DNA of 64,000 bases from Cylindrotheca closterium (taxonomy: Eukaryota > Bacillariophyta > Bacillariophyceae > Bacillariales > Bacillariaceae): contig CAKOGP040001112.1 of NCBI GenBank assembly GCA_933822405.4, positions 248,001 through 312,000 on the forward strand, written 5' to 3'. The position numbers were made by a program, and so were the translations under genes. The notes beneath the pieces are model-generated. The model ran no database searches, was not told the origin of the DNA, and saw only the letters and a program-made list of their open reading frames with translations. Within the stretch, counting starts at the first letter, position 1; the number at the start of each line of letters is the position of its first letter. Positions 46,233 through 56,777 of this stretch are shown here, piece after piece.

Positions 46233-46824
46233 TTTACTGAAAAGACGGATGGTTGTGGGACCCAGAATCAGTAAAGGATATCTATTCTCCATACTACTTG
46301 CAGCGGACCCAAGGAAGCTGTCATGCTCTGTCGGACTGAAGCGTGGTCAGCTGCGTCAATCAATTGATAATCGCCTGGAGCCATGAGTATCAGATCGAAA
46401 GGTATAGGTATCCTGCCGCCTGAGATAGGACTGCAAAGTCACTCATCGCATCATCTCACGTCCTTCGCAGTAGTGATAGCCGAACTTACTATGTTTTTAA
46501 TACGAACGCTATCGATAGTAATATGAGCTATAATCTTCTGCATTTCGGCCATTTGTATCCTGAACATACACGACTGTTTCGACCAAACAAATTTGAAAAT
46601 GGGGTTCATAAAAGTCTCTCCCCGACCACTATTTTTTAAAATATTTGTACTCGTAGACCCAAAAATGCGGCAATAATAATCGAGGACGAGTTTCTAAATT
46701 ATGAGAGAAAGGCAACAACCACAACAACAACGTCAAGCGTTTCTCCTTCCAACACTGCAGAATACGCAGCACAGACATGTTGTAGCAAGGTTTCACAACT
46801 ACATTGTGCACCCTCTTTGTCGAT
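46233..46824. other. Promoter region of RAD51-like gene
   Basis: About 590 nt. The right third (46700-46824) is duplicated at 44130-44250. Otherwise no feature is visible. Confidence 0.4.
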
Positions 46825-48192
46825 ATGCCAACCTTTGAATCCATTCCATTGCATCCCGTGCTCAAGCAACGGCTGTTGGAGCCACCGAATCCAGGTGGTG
46901 TGAGCATTTCCACACCTCAAGCCCTGCTGTCAAGAACGCCTCAAGCGCTGGCCGATCAAATCTTGTTGACAAAATCATCCAAAGATGGAAGCAAGGCTAG
47001 TAACAACATTGGCGACCAAGCCACTATGAAACAAATTGATACCCTCCGAAGTCAAGTCGCACATGTCATGATGGCACAAACAAGGATGGGAAAATACCGC
47101 CTCCAGCAACAACAGCTGTACGATGACAGCACGGTACAATACGACACCAAAAACGGTACTGAGCATTACTATGCCACGCGACCTCTCGTATTGGGGGCGA
47201 CTGTTAGTGCAATGCAAGCATGGCAACAAGAACAGGAGCGAAAAGGACCGATCACCAATCTTTCCACCGGTTGCCGTGCCTTGGATGAGTTGCTTTCCCT
47301 TCCAGCAGAGTATTCAAATCCTCACCCTTATGCTCTTCAACAAGAGCAAAATGGTCAGCCGCAACAGCATCCTCATCATAGTGCAATGCTGGGTTTTCCA
47401 CGAGGACATCTTTTATCTTTTTCGGGTCATTCCGGATCGGGTAAATCCCAATGGTGCCTACAACTTGCGGCCCAAGCCTTGCGACAGCCATGGATCCAGC
47501 AGTTCCCTACGGCTCGAGTTCGATATTGCTACAGTGGCGCCGGTCACGATGGCAATGCCTTGGCCCAACGTCTGTCCCAACTGCTCCAACATCAAGTATC
47601 ACCAATGTCGCCTTCTTCTCCTTTCTCTTCAGGTGCTTTGGAAAAGGTCGAATATCAGCCTATTCGTACTACGACACAATTGGTAGCGATATTGCAAGCG
47701 TTGGAAGACGAACTATTAGAAGCATCCTCGTATGGCACCCGTAGTACTACAACAGCGGGCACCACTTTTCCGACACACAATGCAAACCAAGGAGGAGGGA
47801 TGATCTTACACCACCAACCTCCATTTGTGCTCGTTGTCGATTCCTTGTCCAACCTGGAAGTCCAGGGTGACCCATCTCAAATGTCTCGCCTCCTTCGTAC
47901 TTTGAAACGATTGGCACGGCAATATTCCCTGTGGGTGGTAGTGACTCTTTCCGAACACCACCACAAGGGCAACAAGAATGCACCAGCGACCAACCTACCC
48001 GGTGATTATCACGTGCTGTGCCAATCCATGACTGTCACTGCACCTCCACCAACACCCGAAACTTCCGCTATTACCACCACAACAACCATTCAGGCGACTC
48101 TGTGGAAACATCCCGCCAAACTGGACCAACCGTCCATTACGCTCTTTCATACACCATCGGGAATGTCCACAAGGGCTTCCCCTACCATGTAA
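46825..48192 (+). CDS. RAD51/RecA-like recombinase paralogue
   Basis: RecA-fold ATPase of the RAD51-paralogue type, for homologous recombination. Single exon, 455 aa from ATG 46825 (upstream TTG rejected). The N-terminal 140 residues are polar. The core starts with the RAD51 signature ITNLSTGCRALDELL (about 143-157). Next come GFPRGHLLSFSGHSGSGKSQ with Walker A at about 201-208, and FVLVVDSLSNL with the Walker B Asp339. A His/Gln-rich insert (about 165-186) and a long loop before Walker B enlarge it. Which paralogue (RAD51D, XRCC2/3 type) it is cannot be told by eye. A broken copy of its 5' end lies on the other side of the galactosyltransferase gene. Confidence 0.8.
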   Translation: MPTFESIPLHPVLKQRLLEPPNPGGVSISTPQALLSRTPQALADQILLTKSSKDGSKASNNIGDQATMKQIDTLRSQVAHVMMAQTRMGKYRLQQQQLYDDSTVQYDTKNGTEHYYATRPLVLGATVSAMQAWQQEQERKGPITNLSTGCRALDELLSLPAEYSNPHPYALQQEQNGQPQQHPHHSAMLGFPRGHLLSFSGHSGSGKSQWCLQLAAQALRQPWIQQFPTARVRYCYSGAGHDGNALAQRLSQLLQHQVSPMSPSSPFSSGALEKVEYQPIRTTTQLVAILQALEDELLEASSYGTRSTTTAGTTFPTHNANQGGGMILHHQPPFVLVVDSLSNLEVQGDPSQMSRLLRTLKRLARQYSLWVVVTLSEHHHKGNKNAPATNLPGDYHVLCQSMTVTAPPPTPETSAITTTTTIQATLWKHPAKLDQPSITLFHTPSGMSTRASPTM

Positions 48193-49127: not shown

Positions 49128-50828
49128 ATGATCCACCATAACCGTAATAATCACAAACAATGTTGTCAGAATAGGATTTTTTTCCTTTTTACGATGTGTT
49201 TATCGATTGCTTCGCCATCCTTCTATTCCAGAAAGTGTGCCTTCTTTGTTCGAGCACTATCGACATCGAGCAACAAACATGCTGATAAAAAGAAGATTGC
49301 CGTGATTGGAGGAGGAGCGTAAGTAGGAGGTGGACAAACAGTCATGTATTTATGCCATGTGTTCAAATGGTCATTCACTTACCACCTTTCTCCATCTCAA
49401 AAGGTCTGGTATATTTGCTTCCATTGCTGCTGCAGAACATTCACATACACAAGTCACAGTTCTTGAAGCGACTGGCAAAACTTTGCAAAAGGTGAAGATA
49501 TCTGGTGGAGGGAGGTGTAATGTTATGCACGACACGGACAAGTCCATTCAAACGATTTTGGGATCGTATCCTCGTGGGAGTAAGGAGTTGAATGGTGCCT
49601 ATCGCAAGCGATTTACTCCAGCAATGGCCAGAGACTGGTTCGAGTATCGTGGCGTAGAACTGAAAACGGAAGCCGATGGACGCATGTTTCCCACAACAGA
49701 CTCGTCGCAGACTATACTAGATACGTTGATGAACGCGGCCGAAGAGGAAGGTGTCGAAATCCGAACCAAACAAAAAGTGGCCTCCATCACTCCTTATGAC
49801 AATGGCTTTCTAGTTGGTTGGAAGGATGCCGAAGAACCTCCCGAGGAATTTGAAGCTATCATATTGGCTACTGGGTCGGCACCAGTCGGGTATGGTCTGG
49901 CAAAAAGTTTGGGGCATGACTTGGTACAACCTGCCCCGTCGTTATTCACGTTGAATTGCAAACATGCCATCAAAGAAGATGGGTTGCTTTACGGTCTCTC
50001 AGGCATATCTGTTCCCACCGCACGCATTACTCTCTCCATGACAACTATATCTGGTGGAGAAACTAATAACATCAGCGATCCAAGCAAGAAAGTAAAGAAG
50101 AAGAAAAAGACGACAAAGCTGCAGCAAGAAGGCCCACTTCTAATAACACATCACGGATTATCAGGGCCTGCAGCTTTGAGGTTGTCAGCTTTTGCCGCCC
50201 GTGAGTTCCAAGAAATCAACTACCGAACCCATATCACTGTCCATTGGGATACTGGTATCGGATCGAATGCTGAAGAAGTTTTTGAGAAACTGTGGCAGGT
50301 GACATCTAGCAATCCGAAGCGTACGGTCTCCAGCCTTTGCCCAATACCCAACAATCAAATCCCTCGTCGACTTTGGTCAGCTCTGGTGGAATATAGTGGG
50401 TTGGGCTCAAATGACAGCAACCCAAATGGTATTCTGTGGGGAGGTGCCCCGAAGAAGCTGGTTCGAAAGTTGGCCACGAACCTAGTAGCATGCCCCCTTG
50501 AAGTGACAGGGAAAGGGACTTTCAAGGAGGAGTTTGTAACTGCCGGCGGAGTTTCACTGGAAGAATTGGAAATGAAAACTATGGAATCCAAGAAATGGTA
50601 TGTCCAACATGTCGCGAATCAAGCATTAGGGCTATTTGTTTGTGCTGAACAAAGTCTCATGCATCTCCTTCGGTTGCGTTGCTCTTCACTGGCAGTCCTG
50701 GGGTTTTCCTGTGCGGTGAATTGATAAATGTTGACGGTGTGACCGGTGGATTTAACTTTATGAACTGCTGGGCCACGGGATTCATGGCTGGCCACAGTTC
50801 GGCAGACTATGTACACTCATCACAGTGA
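49128..50828 (+). CDS. HI0933/BaiN-family flavoprotein, spliced
   Basis: FAD-dependent oxidoreductase of the HI0933 (YhiN/BaiN) family. Exons 49128-49318, 49404-50597 and 50696-50828 give about 505 aa. Splicing rebuilds the Rossmann motif [20 protein letters not shown] over intron 1 and the C-terminal signature [35 protein letters not shown] over intron 2. Other hallmarks are [13 protein letters not shown] and [19 protein letters not shown]. The unspliced frame would stop at LGFSCAVN and lose the FAD-binding end, so intron 2 is strongly supported. The N-terminus has Ser, Arg and hydrophobic residues ([20 protein letters not shown]), as in an organelle-targeting sequence. An internal ATG at 49194 is an alternative start. 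A Lys-rich insert lies near residue 300. Confidence 0.88.
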
Positions 50829-50967: not shown

Positions 50968-53400
50968 TTAGTACCGTCGTCTCTTTTTCTTTTGGTTCTT
51001 ATCTTGGCCGTTTCGGTTTTTTTTCGTCGATCCATTCGGTTTTCCATCCTTTTTTGTTTCTCTTGCACGAAGCTGAAATAAAGACCGCATCCGTCGAGTT
51101 GCTGAGATGTATATGCTGTCCTCGCTATCTTTGATTTCACCGTACTTAGAAACAACCCACCCATATACAACCTTTGTCTCGTCCTTCTTCCATCCATAAC
51201 CGCTCTCGGGAGTCACTAAGTGCAACTTTTCGTCCGCTTCAAAGTCTTCTTGATTCGTATATTCCCTGACCGAGCCGAACTCGCACCATCCAATCACTCT
51301 TGGGCCAATCGAATTGGAGCCTGATATATCAATCACATCACTCATGCTGCTTACTCCAGCCTTGCCTGCTGGTGACTGAAGGATCATGATGCGCTTCCCA
51401 ATCAAAGCTAGGGGCAGTGTGTACGCCCTCGTTTCGATAGGCTTCTTTCCTTGGACTACAGCCAGGGCCCACGGTTCTTGTAATTCGAGACAAAAGTTGG
51501 ATGTTGCCCAACCTTCCCAGTCCAATCCCTTGGCATGGTCGTTCGACTCCTTTGTGCTTTCGCTGTCTTGGTTTTCTTCTGGCTTTGGTAGGTCGCTCGC
51601 TTTTCGAGGCAGATAGGCACGTCCAGCTACTCGCAGGTCTTCGCTGATCTGTTTCAAACCATTCGGCGTGCCATCTATTGGGGACATTCCATATTCATCG
51701 ACTTGTTTCGTCCCTTCTGGAACATTGAATTGGAACGGCACATCCATCGGCCGACACTCAGGTCCGAGTTCTCGAAACACATGATCCTTTTCCCGCTTTT
51801 GCCAAAGTTCTCTCATCACAGCTCGTTCGTTTATTACCTCCGCAAGAGGCTCGTAGATGTTCTCCAGAGCGCTATGCTCATCCAACGAGCTCCGCGTCAA
51901 CAAATCTTCAATGCACGCCAATGCTTTCTTTCGGCGTTCCTTTGCTTTCCGCTCTTTTCTCGAAGGTTTGTCGTCATTTCTATCGGAATAAGTTCCAACT
52001 CCACACCTTTCTTCCGCTGCTGCTTTCAAGAGAGTTACGACTTGACGTGTTCGATTCTCCAAAAGGGTCCAAAATCGGAGCAGCTTCTGCATTGGTTCCT
52101 TCCATGCCTATGGTAGTTTGATGATACAGGTGTGAGTTCAATATGTTTTGTCAGCAAGAAGTAAGATTCAACAGAGACTTACAGGCCAAAGGAGTTCGAG
52201 ATGTTGGGAGCCTTGAATGTAGAACTGACGGATCCATTCCGACTCCAGCTCAGTCAACAACAGTTGTTCCGATCTCCAAAGCTTGCTTCCCTTCTTGTGG
52301 AAATTGCTACATGTTGTTTGACATCGAAGCAAGTGATAATCCACATTATGAGAATCTCGGAGTAATCGAAAGGTGCAAGAATAGCGAACTCCAGCCGAAG
52401 CGATGTCTCCAGTAGTTAGTACAGTGTGTTGATGGTGATGATTAAAGTCATCCAACAGATAGTATGCAGAACCTGAAGGAAGGGAAGCTGCTATGGGAGG
52501 TGTCTCCTTGATGATTGATGATTCTATGCCCTTCCCTCGTCTTGAAGCCTGAGGACCCTCCGAGTCGTGGGCCACTCTCAAAGCCACATACCACTGGCCA
52601 TCATTATTTGATGTTGAATTCTTTGGCGGTATCAGTGTTTGGTAGACAGCAATCGTAGAGTATTGCTCCAGCGAGGAGTCAGCATGCCAGCTAACGGATG
52701 CTTTCATATTCCCCATGGTGGGTTCAGGCTTCAGGTCATCGTAGGCTTCCATTCGATTGATGAGACAGATATCAAAGTTGGATCTTCCTCGTGTTGCCGG
52801 GGCATTCCGTTGAGCTCGAAGCTCGCTGAGCTCCTTTAGGTGGTGTTGTGTTCGTTGTGTCAGTTTTGCCCCTAGTTTTTGGATCTCTGTATTGTCCCAG
52901 GGATGAGCGAACATTCTTAATCCTAGGTATTTATAGGTTGTCCCTTGTTCTCCAAGGACGCACCTTGTGACATATGTCTTGGCACATTTCGTTCCGAGTC
53001 CAAAGGGTTGTGTCACATCCCGTCGAAACAATTTGTCGTCCAGCATCTGCTGAAGATAGTTTTGAGCACGTTGCTCATCATATATCGACTCATCAACAAC
53101 AAAACCTTCATACGATGTCTCTAATGCTTGTCGAAAGGATTCCTTGTACGGCTTCGCATTCTTCAGAAAATCGTCAGATGGTATTGGTAGGTTCTTTGGA
53201 AATGGGAGTGGATATTGGGGATTTGAAGGCTTCGATTCTACACTTTGGAAAGAATGGGGAGGAGTGTTCGCACTCTTGATCTTTGCGGTTGTTTTGGTGT
53301 CTCCTTTCCGTTGTCGTTTCTTTCCCATTGTCGTTTCTGTTGTTGTTCTGTTTGACGACTGGGATGAGTGAATGGTTGGCATTTGACATCGAAGATCCAT
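50968..53400 (-). CDS. FTO: FTO-type 2OG demethylase fused to an ASCH domain
   Basis: Homologue of FTO, the Fe(II)/2OG enzyme that demethylates N6-methyladenosine and related bases. Exons 52183-53400 and 50968-52107 (75-nt intron, GTAAGT donor, ATAG acceptor, phase 0) give 785 aa. Catalytic domain: NMKASVSWHADSSLEQYSTI with H239 and D241, SAYYLLDDFNHHHQHTVL with H325, and R339/R345 spaced as FTO R316/R322. ESEWIRQFYIQGSQ then runs across the splice (LLWP/AWKEPMQKLL) into the C-terminal helical domain, which ends at ELGPECRPMDVPFQFN, matching human ADQKPECRPYWE..MPLPFDLT. After a linker comes an ASCH-like domain (about 608-745): LELQEPWALAVVQGKKPIET, LIGKRIMILQSP, RVIGWCEFGSV and YGWVVSKYGEIK. 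A basic tail (KKKRRRY) suggests nuclear entry. M25 is an alternative start. Confidence 0.87.
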
Positions 53401-53722: not shown

Positions 53723-55465
53723 ATGCTCTTGAAGGATCTGTTTAACAAATTATTACAATCGCCGCATATCACTGCCTTTCCAAGTATCGAAGAAATAGGA
53801 TATTTCGAGTCATTCGTTCGATTCATGATGATCGTTTCCATACTGTGGTTGATTTGCATCAGCTTATCACTCACACTGGGTTCGGCTAATGCCTTCAGTG
53901 GTATGCTTCGACGAAAGCTAGACACTGAAAAATTTAAAGAAATGGCGAACGCAGAGTCGATCCGCAAGTCGTTTCGCTCAACTACAGAATTTCTTAACGA
54001 TTTGAACAACGATTTGTCGCCCCCCTTTCAATTGGACCTTCAAGATCCTGACGGGTTGTCAGGTACCGTTCACTCTCCAGATGTGACACACTTTCTCTTT
54101 TTGATGCATGGTCATAGGGGTCAGAGCAAAGATTTGGCGTACATGCACACAGTTATGGAGAGAATTGCTGGAACCAAAAAGAAACGAATGTCTCGTGTGG
54201 CCAGTCCTTCTCGCAGCAAAAACAATAAAATCTCAGGAACGGATTCAGACCCAGTGAAACATGACATGTTAGTCCACAATACCGTGTCCAATGAGCACAA
54301 GACTGAGGATGGCATCCAGAATGGAGGTGATAGACTAGTGGAAGAAATGCGCCAAGTAATCGAAGGTGAAATGAAGAAACGACACCCTAACTCCAAAGAC
54401 GTCTTTGATATCACCATTTCCATTCTTGGAAACTCGTTGGGTGGTCTCTATGGTCGATACGCCATAGCTAAGCTTGTGGAGCGACACTGTATCAAAGATG
54501 GCAATGGCAAAGGTGGTGATTCCTGTTGGATGTTGGATGGAAGATACAGGTTACACCTCAATGTCTTTTGCACGACAGCGACCCCTCATTTAGGCGTTTC
54601 CAAGCACACATTTCTGCCAATTCCAAGAACTGGCGAAATCGCTGTTGCGACAATCATGAAGGACACTGGAAAGGATCTATTTCGAATGAATGATCTGTTG
54701 CACAAGATGGCCACGTGTCCGACATATCTTCGGCCACTTGCCAATTTCAGAAAGAGGATCGCCTATGCCAATGCATTCAACACAGACTTCCCAGTTCCTA
54801 CTGCCACTGCGGCCTTTCTGAGTGAAAATTCTACTTATCCTCACTATTTTGAGGACGACTCGTTAATTGTGGAACCAGAAAGGACACCGAAAAGCCAAAG
54901 CAGAAAGAGATCACCTGCGAGAGGCAACAGTCCAGAACGGGCCAAGAAAAAGCTGTTTGTTGCCTCTCTATATACACGAACACTGGAGGATAACCAAGAC
55001 GAAAGATCCGATAGCATGCAAACCGATTATGATGGCAAGAAACACAAGGATGAATTCCATCACATGTCGGAATGTCTCGACCAGTTGGGTTGGAAGAAAG
55101 TCTTTATTGACATACGCAGTGAACTCCCCACAGTTGAAATCCCAAAGGGTTTTATCAAGAAGCGGAAAGAATTATCCAAGGAGACCGAAGACGAGTCGGC
55201 GTCGTCGTCGTCCAGATGCATCCATTCGCTCAAACGGCAACGAACGACATTGTCCTCCAGAGACTTGGCCTCGGCAGTGGCACAGAACAACGACAATCGA
55301 TTCTCTTGGCCACTGGGGCACAATATGATTGTTGCGTTTTCTAGGACTCGCATGAGCACGTTAATGAACAGGGGAGGAAGGCCAGTGGTGGATGCCGTTG
55401 CCAAAGAACTGGTGGAAGATATCTTTGCCTGGGAGGACGGTGGAAAGAAATCTACCACTCAATAA
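53723..55465 (+). CDS. DUF676 putative serine esterase/lipase
   Basis: Alpha/beta-hydrolase of the DUF676 (ROG1/FAM135-like) group. Single exon, 580 aa. A membrane segment near the N-terminus (about 32-55, FMMIVSILWLICISLSLTLG) is followed by the catalytic domain: THFLFLMHGHRGQSKDLAYM (oxyanion strand with HGH in place of the usual HGxxG), ISILGNSLGGLYGRYAI (nucleophile Ser in GNSLGG), and VFCTTATPHLGV, the family's TPHLG motif. Polar inserts (about 150-195 and 385-450) enlarge it. HNMIVAFSRTRMS near residue 540 may carry the catalytic His. Probably membrane-anchored, acting on lipid esters; the substrate is unknown. Confidence 0.82.
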   Translation: MLLKDLFNKLLQSPHITAFPSIEEIGYFESFVRFMMIVSILWLICISLSLTLGSANAFSGMLRRKLDTEKFKEMANAESIRKSFRSTTEFLNDLNNDLSPPFQLDLQDPDGLSGTVHSPDVTHFLFLMHGHRGQSKDLAYMHTVMERIAGTKKKRMSRVASPSRSKNNKISGTDSDPVKHDMLVHNTVSNEHKTEDGIQNGGDRLVEEMRQVIEGEMKKRHPNSKDVFDITISILGNSLGGLYGRYAIAKLVERHCIKDGNGKGGDSCWMLDGRYRLHLNVFCTTATPHLGVSKHTFLPIPRTGEIAVATIMKDTGKDLFRMNDLLHKMATCPTYLRPLANFRKRIAYANAFNTDFPVPTATAAFLSENSTYPHYFEDDSLIVEPERTPKSQSRKRSPARGNSPERAKKKLFVASLYTRTLEDNQDERSDSMQTDYDGKKHKDEFHHMSECLDQLGWKKVFIDIRSELPTVEIPKGFIKKRKELSKETEDESASSSSRCIHSLKRQRTTLSSRDLASAVAQNNDNRFSWPLGHNMIVAFSRTRMSTLMNRGGRPVVDAVAKELVEDIFAWEDGGKKSTTQ

Positions 55466-55766: not shown

Positions 55767-56777
55767 ATGACAAGTCGACGGCTCATCCTAGATACACTTC
55801 TAAAGAGAAGACTTTCTGTATTTGAAAACTCTGCCTCTCGTAGCTTGTCTTGCATTGCCAACAATGGTAATTTTGCTTCCAACATTCCAACAACTCAGTT
55901 GACGTCATCGCCATTGAACCTTGCTTTCCATGGCCCTCAATCAACCATCATTGGTGCCAGAAGATTCAAACACGCGTCCAAAATGGGGCATCATCTGGAA
56001 ACACTTGATGAATTGGCCCACGAACCCGAACGAGAGGCTGCTGAAGAAAAGCGCAAAAAGAAAAAGGAACGAAAGGCAAACAAAAAGAAGGGCAAAGCGG
56101 CTGCACCTGCACAGGAAGAATTAGAAGACGACGACGACGATGATGACTTTGACTTTGATGATGACGAGGACATGGAAGAGGAAGAGGTAATTGGTGAAGA
56201 CGGCGAGGTTGAAATCACCCTCCCCGATCCGTCGGATGTCAAGCGACGCATGATGAATGTCGTAGGCAGGTTTGAAGAAGCCTTGAAGAGTATCCGAGGT
56301 GCCGAACCCTCTCCCGAAATCTTCGACGACTTGATGGTAGATGCGTATGGTTCTATGACTCCACTCAAGGCGATAGGACAAGTTGTCATTGTCTCACCCA
56401 CCTTGGCACAAATTACCTGTTTCGATCCAATGATTGCCAAGAACGCGGCCAAAGCCGTTCAACTTGCCTTGGAACTGAATCCACAAGTGGAAGAGGGGGG
56501 CAACATCAAGGTACCACTCCCCCGCATGTCTTTAGAAGTGAGAGAACAAACTGCAAAACAACTCAACAAACGATCAGAAGCCTGCCGTCAACGCATTCGT
56601 CAAGTCCGTCGCAAGGCAATGGATAAGGTGAAAAAGGGCAAGGATGGAAAGATTCCGGGTGTCTCTAAGGATGACGCCTTTGCTAATGCAAAAGAAATTG
56701 AAAGTGTGACAGAGTCCGCAATGGACTCGCTGAAGAGCTTGGTGGATAAGAAGACGGACTCCATCATGAATGTCTAA
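55767..56777 (+). CDS. Organellar ribosome recycling factor
   Basis: Ribosome recycling factor (RRF/frr family), which with EF-G splits post-termination ribosomes. Single exon, 336 aa. The first 70 residues are rich in Ser, Arg and Asn with few acids (MTSRRLILDTLLKRRLSVFE), as in mitochondrial presequences. A Lys-rich then Asp/Glu-rich region (about 90-140) follows. The RRF domain (about 150-336) shows VVGRFEEALKSIRGAEPSPE (three-helix entry), YGSMTPLKAIGQVVIVSPTL, and PLPRMSLEVREQTAKQLNKR then RQRIRQVRRKAMD, all characteristic. Bacterial RRF is about 185 aa, so the extra length is the N-terminal extension. Mitochondrial rather than plastid location is inferred from the presequence. Confidence 0.88.
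   Translation: MTSRRLILDTLLKRRLSVFENSASRSLSCIANNGNFASNIPTTQLTSSPLNLAFHGPQSTIIGARRFKHASKMGHHLETLDELAHEPEREAAEEKRKKKKERKANKKKGKAAAPAQEELEDDDDDDDFDFDDDEDMEEEEVIGEDGEVEITLPDPSDVKRRMMNVVGRFEEALKSIRGAEPSPEIFDDLMVDAYGSMTPLKAIGQVVIVSPTLAQITCFDPMIAKNAAKAVQLALELNPQVEEGGNIKVPLPRMSLEVREQTAKQLNKRSEACRQRIRQVRRKAMDKVKKGKDGKIPGVSKDDAFANAKEIESVTESAMDSLKSLVDKKTDSIMNV

Follow-up and report, generated by a model that had tools for sequence, protein, structure and literature searches.

Related FTO and ASCH proteins

An FTO protein with a C-terminal ASCH domain was described for several marine algae in 2015 (Mol Metab, PMC4354923), where the algal fusion served as a clue to the binding of FTO to TRIP4, then reported in mammals. 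According to the same paper, human FTO lacks an ASCH domain, as the original prediction for the present locus had said. Human FTO also differs from the relatives analysed here by Glu234, where these have Ser. A 2007 report had already described FTO in Ostreococcus, Phaeodactylum and Thalassiosira (PMC2241624). Additionally, writers and erasers were surveyed in microalgae, including Cylindrotheca closterium, with queries originally identified in marine angiosperms (PMC11312118), and human FTO was overexpressed in Phaeodactylum in a work that does not use the term ASCH (PMC12024952). Searches of the open-licence literature gave no experimental follow-up of algal FTO-ASCH.

Several ASCH proteins of other kinds are known. 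TRIP4/ASC-1 lacks an FTO part; it contains a zinc finger and is reported to dock onto ASCC3 (PMC10076317), whereas the Cylindrotheca protein has no match to a zinc-finger family. EOLA1 (CXorf40A) is a stand-alone protein for which RNA binding was proposed from its structure. YqfB uses a Thr-Lys-Glu triad with Thr24 as the nucleophile (PMC6972931).

The gene studied here has the same two-part architecture, in the same order, as the algal FTO-ASCH of PMC4354923. Because that combination has been in print since 2015, the architecture is not new, contrary to what had been proposed for this locus. Compared with the parts of PMC4354923 that deal with algal FTO, the present analysis adds the species, its intron, the distribution among ochrophytes and the separate-protein states; its interest lies mainly in the fused-or-separate pattern and in the Ser at the Glu234 position.

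Structure of the FTO-ASCH gene

The window, that is, the whole analysed stretch of 64,000 nucleotides from C. closterium (contig CAKOGP040001112.1), contains a single FTO-ASCH gene on the minus strand, with two exons at 53328 or 53400..52183 and 52107..50968 (Table 1). Left unspliced, the intron (52182..52108) would end the reading frame, since its fifth codon is a stop. After splicing, the product is 785 residues long if translated from the ATG at 53400 and 761 if from that at 53328. The C. closterium database protein P0001 (unnamed product; FTO-type dioxygenase in UniRef) is 100% identical to the spliced product over 97% of the query. Since P0001 has 761 residues and the consensus of 74 relatives opens with MGK at the same place, the 761-residue form is probably the right one, and translation probably starts at residue 25 (53328), the third Met in frame.

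Table 1 Features of the FTO-ASCH locus and its neighbours (positions in the window)
Feature	Position	Strand	Basis or remark
In-frame ATG upstream of the likely start	53400	-	opens the 785-aa reading
Exon 1	52183..53328	-	starts at the probable first Met (residue 25 in 785-aa numbering), as does P0001
FTO_NTD catalytic domain, residues 88-346	52363..53139	-	Pfam PF12933, E 3.3e-52
HxD iron motif His-Ala-Asp, residues 239-241	52678..52686	-	alignment with human FTO
FTO_CTD, residues 373-530, split by the intron	51736..52284	-	Pfam PF12934, E 2.1e-17
Intron, 75 nt, phase 0, GTAAGT...CCATAG	52108..52182	-	exons in frame on both sides
Exon 2, stop codon included	50968..52107	-	reading frame
ASCH domain with GxKxxExR motif, residues 600-755	51061..51528	-	profile, motif, predicted fold
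Lys/Arg-rich C-terminal tail, residues 756-785, low model confidence	50971..51060	-	sequence and model
AAA_25 ATPase frame (at cut-off)	46804-48192	+	neighbour
HI0933-like flavoprotein frame	49330-50724	+	neighbour
DUF676 serine esterase frame	53723-55465	+	neighbour
Ribosome recycling factor frame	55767-56777	+	neighbour

Whether the two exons could instead be separate genes, or their junction a mis-joined assembly artefact, was considered, as no transcript was seen for this very gene. However, the FTO_CTD match is one stretch (residues 373-530) that runs across the exon junction at 406/407, and the ASCH domain is present, by BLAST, in 91 of the 120 relatives listed, three of them named as MMETSP transcripts (P0011, P0045 and P0073), in which one open reading frame spans the two FTO domains together with ASCH. 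Separate genes or an assembly error are thus extremely improbable, and this reading was rejected. Moreover, among the matches listed, the similarity ends at the intron position, between LWx and V[R/S/C], in the gene calls for 18 of the 40 relatives without an ASCH domain, as expected if these models run into an intron there; 15 of the 18 were labelled by script, and P0126, P0128 and P0129 were assigned manually from their ends. The continuous FTO_CTD, the identity to P0001, the intron-stopped relatives and the MMETSP transcripts all bear out the earlier view of two frames joined into a single gene by a phase-0 intron. Its splice sites had been called perfect; the donor is indeed strong, but for the acceptor, which lacks a long pyrimidine tract, this was an overstatement.

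The gene appears to be single-copy. FTO_NTD had one match in the 47.6-Mb C. closterium genome, and this ASCH domain had one clear match. A second FTO-ASCH copy or a free ASCH paralogue in this species was rejected, since the next best match was at chance level (E 0.33); no separate ASCH copy was found in this genome. The Pfam ASCH model had no match in the genome at E<=1 and, because it also missed the FTO-ASCH gene itself, was considered too weak for genome searching.

Other RNA modification genes in the genome

One YTH m6A-reader domain (G000:C157:230032-230418, L004) and one METTL16-type methyltransferase (Methyltransf_10; G000:C112:907694-908560, L005) were matched in the C. closterium genome, which is compatible with the use of m6A in this species. 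The search for an MT-A70 writer found no match in the genome and none in the controls either, so that it had no positive control. The AlkB-type family 2OG-FeII_Oxy_2 had 11 exon-level matches (L006-L013 and three others), 9 of them over the cut-off. In a scan of viral_contigs for viral carriage of FTO, two stretches matched the pattern and neither was confirmed.

The FTO part and its altered pocket residue

Both FTO families were found in one protein, with 177.9 bits for FTO_NTD and 64 bits for FTO_CTD (cut-offs 27 and 27). The HxD...H iron triad and the 2-oxoglutarate arginines could be aligned with human FTO and are invariant in a 74-row alignment (A1) of full-length rows with the ASCH domain. 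In the predicted model, the FTO fold is seen complete with its helical C-terminal domain. Thus, the catalytic residues and the two FTO domains named in the original prediction were supported by the Pfam profiles, the human alignment and the model alike.

The codon that follows HxD (52675-52677) encodes Ser, and human FTO has Glu at this position, which we take to be Glu234 in human numbering. Of the 139 relatives listed, 135 have a recognisable motif, and every one of these has Ser there; the other four gave no motif. The purine-contacting Arg of human FTO (R96) is present as Arg in the Cylindrotheca protein according to the human alignment; the vertebrate-type m6A pocket (R96 and E234) is thus changed by the replacement of Glu with Ser. 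R96 and E234 of human FTO are reported to form bonds with the purine, and activity is said to be abolished when they are mutated (PMC7835257). Considering this mutant result, the Ser suggests that algal FTO may handle a different base or may hold m6A in a different way.

The ASCH domain and the C-terminal tail

In a structure search with the full-length model, FTO and AlkB-type chains took up the whole list of matches; the ASCH domain was therefore modelled and searched by itself. The isolated domain was predicted to form an ASCH/PUA-like barrel whose best structural matches are solved ASCH structures, in line with the fold that had been proposed for residues 608-745. The profile search was less uniform: the two FTO domains were recovered above the cut-off, as anticipated, but the Pfam ASCH model scored only 14.7 bits on the Cylindrotheca domain against a cut-off of 21.2. 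Among ten relatives, P0003 (26.3 bits) and P0012 (24.3) pass, six match below the cut-off and two give no match at E<=0.1; at this threshold the model matches 16 of 17 domains. Precomputed database domains annotate ASCH in 1 of the 120 relatives listed.

The GxKxxExR motif, which is reported to sit in a cavity of ASCH domains (PMC6803910), is intact in the Cylindrotheca domain (GKKPIETR); its K, E and R are present in 52 of 52 domains and its G in 47. Pfam at E<=1 gave only the two FTO families for the whole protein, and no zinc finger family was found in it; the pairing of zinc finger and ASCH that marks TRIP4/ASC-1 orthologues is therefore absent.

The ASCH domain might instead act as a second enzyme on modified nucleosides or RNA, either as a YqfB-type ac4C amidohydrolase or as a ribonuclease like ZmASCH (Zymomonas mobilis), the top Foldseek match of the predicted domain. 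However, by motif spacing, the position of the YqfB nucleophile Thr24 is Glu in 212 of 219 domains and Asp in one (the motif was not found in six), so that hydrolysis of N4-acetylcytidine by the YqfB mechanism, suggested earlier for this domain, is unlikely. For ZmASCH, with Tyr47, Lys53 and Ser128 as the defining residues, a weak profile alignment was used that does not include Ser128; in it, the Tyr47 position is Leu (41), Ile (6), Met (4) or Val (1) in the 52 domains and never Tyr, and this residue is seemingly not conserved. A second enzymatic activity is thus considered very unlikely.

At least three consecutive Lys/Arg residues follow the ASCH domain in 88 of the 99 fused relatives among the matches listed, and the Lys/Arg-rich tail is possibly a nuclear signal.

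Spread of the fusion in ochrophytes

Relatives were sampled as the best 120 of 310 from the first search and 19 new ones among the 120 listed of 377 from a second search, in which a distant relative served as the query. Eight of the 19 newly listed relatives have the ASCH domain, and the carriers from the second search include Triparma columacea (Bolidophyceae), Chrysoparadoxa, Phaeothamnion, Ectocarpus and the brown alga Discosporangium. In total, the domain was found in 99 of the 139 FTO relatives listed, so the same C-terminus does recur in other FTO genes, as the original prediction had proposed to survey. With carriers that include a bolidophyte and brown algae, an old age of the fusion within ochrophytes is probable. 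In the 74-row alignment (A1), identity to P0001 averages 0.61 over the NTD, 0.52 over the CTD, 0.52 over the ASCH domain and 0.29 over the linker.

Of the 40 rows without the domain, 18 break off at intron 1, another 12 reach only to about residue 580, and the remaining 10 retain a Lys/Arg-rich tail. Fragilaria P0089 ends near residue 580, and its ASCH part lies in another model, P0146, listed with an equal-sized contig. Domain loss in every such relative was therefore rejected, given the intron-stopped rows, the ends near residue 580 and the Fragilaria case. Only the ten tail-keeping rows and Seminavis point to a real absence of ASCH, and even here a skipped exon may be the cause instead of real loss. 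On an FTO tree of 102 rows, which predates the second search and leaves out Seminavis P0130, 19 rows labelled as lacking ASCH, cut models included, need 7 changes, 6 of them forced by well-supported branches. The ten proteins that retain the tail without the domain are P0075, P0095, P0098, P0106, P0109-P0113 and P0120.

Apparently free-standing ASCH proteins and Seminavis robusta

Short proteins were also searched by profile, which gave 149 matches, 120 of them listed. The domain begins near the start, with no FTO remnant, in 96 of these, while 19 are front-cut and 5 keep FTO_CTD remnants. A Lys/Arg tail or near-identity with fused rows marks some of the 96 as pieces of fused genes; among the matches listed, 84 of the 96 are tail-free. 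By this tail rule, 83 rows of a 207-row ASCH tree are candidate free proteins, which is an upper bound. A 43-row clade (42 tail-free) holds three Cyclotella rows (Thalassiosirales) as well as P0195 and P0234, whose names mark them as complete MMETSP transcripts, and a 15-row clade (14 tail-free) holds P0178 of Seminavis robusta (171 aa). Support on this tree is mixed, and of its 19 free-versus-fused label changes only 4 are forced by well-supported branches. P0178, P0195, P0225, P0234 and P0249 are short, apparently free ASCH proteins that belong to one subfamily with the domain fused to FTO; where the organism is named, it is a diatom.

The FTO protein of S. robusta (Naviculales), P0130, has 642 aa and no ASCH domain by profile. 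It lies on a contig of 119,338, and P0178 lies on a contig of 108,630. Since P0130 lacks ASCH and the two contigs differ in size, FTO and ASCH seem to exist as separate proteins in this diatom. Alternatively, P0130 may be a cut gene model and P0178 a free extra ASCH copy. Because some FTO relatives lack the domain, ASCH is not always needed in cis; where FTO lacks it, as in S. robusta, a free ASCH protein from this subfamily may take over its role in trans.

Proposed function of the two-part protein

We consider it reasonably likely that this protein is an Fe(II)/2-oxoglutarate demethylase of adenine in RNA with a nucleic-acid-binding ASCH module that holds its substrate. The single-copy diatom gene encodes one two-part protein, whose FTO part, as an Fe(II)/2-oxoglutarate dioxygenase, most likely oxidises the methyl group off adenine in RNA. 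The GxKxxExR cavity of the ASCH domain and the neighbouring cleft are most likely where nucleic acid binds, as is thought for other ASCH domains, and the domain would then hold or position the substrate for the catalytic domain. We infer catalysis, nucleic-acid binding and nuclear location from the protein families, and RNA reading by the ASCH domain is plausible on the same grounds. The Ser at the Glu234 position speaks against this explanation, as the substrate may differ from that of human FTO. Also counting against it are the negative MT-A70 search, albeit one with no positive control, the Pfam score of the Cylindrotheca ASCH domain below the cut-off, the weak or missing ASCH matches of several relatives, and the FTO relatives that lack the domain.

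The main rival is docking: instead of reading RNA, the ASCH domain would mainly attach FTO to a complex for transcription or repair through protein contacts, in the way TRIP4 is attached to ASCC3. The reported binding of mammalian FTO to TRIP4 (PMC4354923), the contact of the TRIP4 ASCH domain with ASCC3 (PMC10076317) and the separate ASCH protein of S. robusta, which fits a partner joining by contact, are all consistent with docking. However, the cavity residues are invariant, as expected of a ligand pocket, and it is the zinc finger, not ASCH, that is described as stably docking TRIP4 (PMC10076317). Moreover, the human FTO epitopes (30-48 and 249-269) given in PMC4354923 contact full-length TRIP4, with no ASCH domain mapped there. 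Docking as the chief role is therefore rather doubtful, and substrate holding by a nucleic-acid-binding ASCH domain is preferred.

A more speculative extension, to which we give still less weight, is that ochrophyte FTO is a two-site eraser, in which the ASCH cavity would read a base or a second mark adjacent to the methyl group, the Ser pocket would have a substrate preference different from that of vertebrate FTO, and in some diatom lineages the reader would have turned into a separate protein acting in trans. If two-site reading were true, FTO and its dedicated ASCH partner would form one functional unit, fused or apart. A diatom with one fused copy and a diatom with the parts apparently separate make it testable whether ASCH directs FTO to RNA, and the Ser at the Glu234 position offers a handle on which methylated base algal FTO removes.
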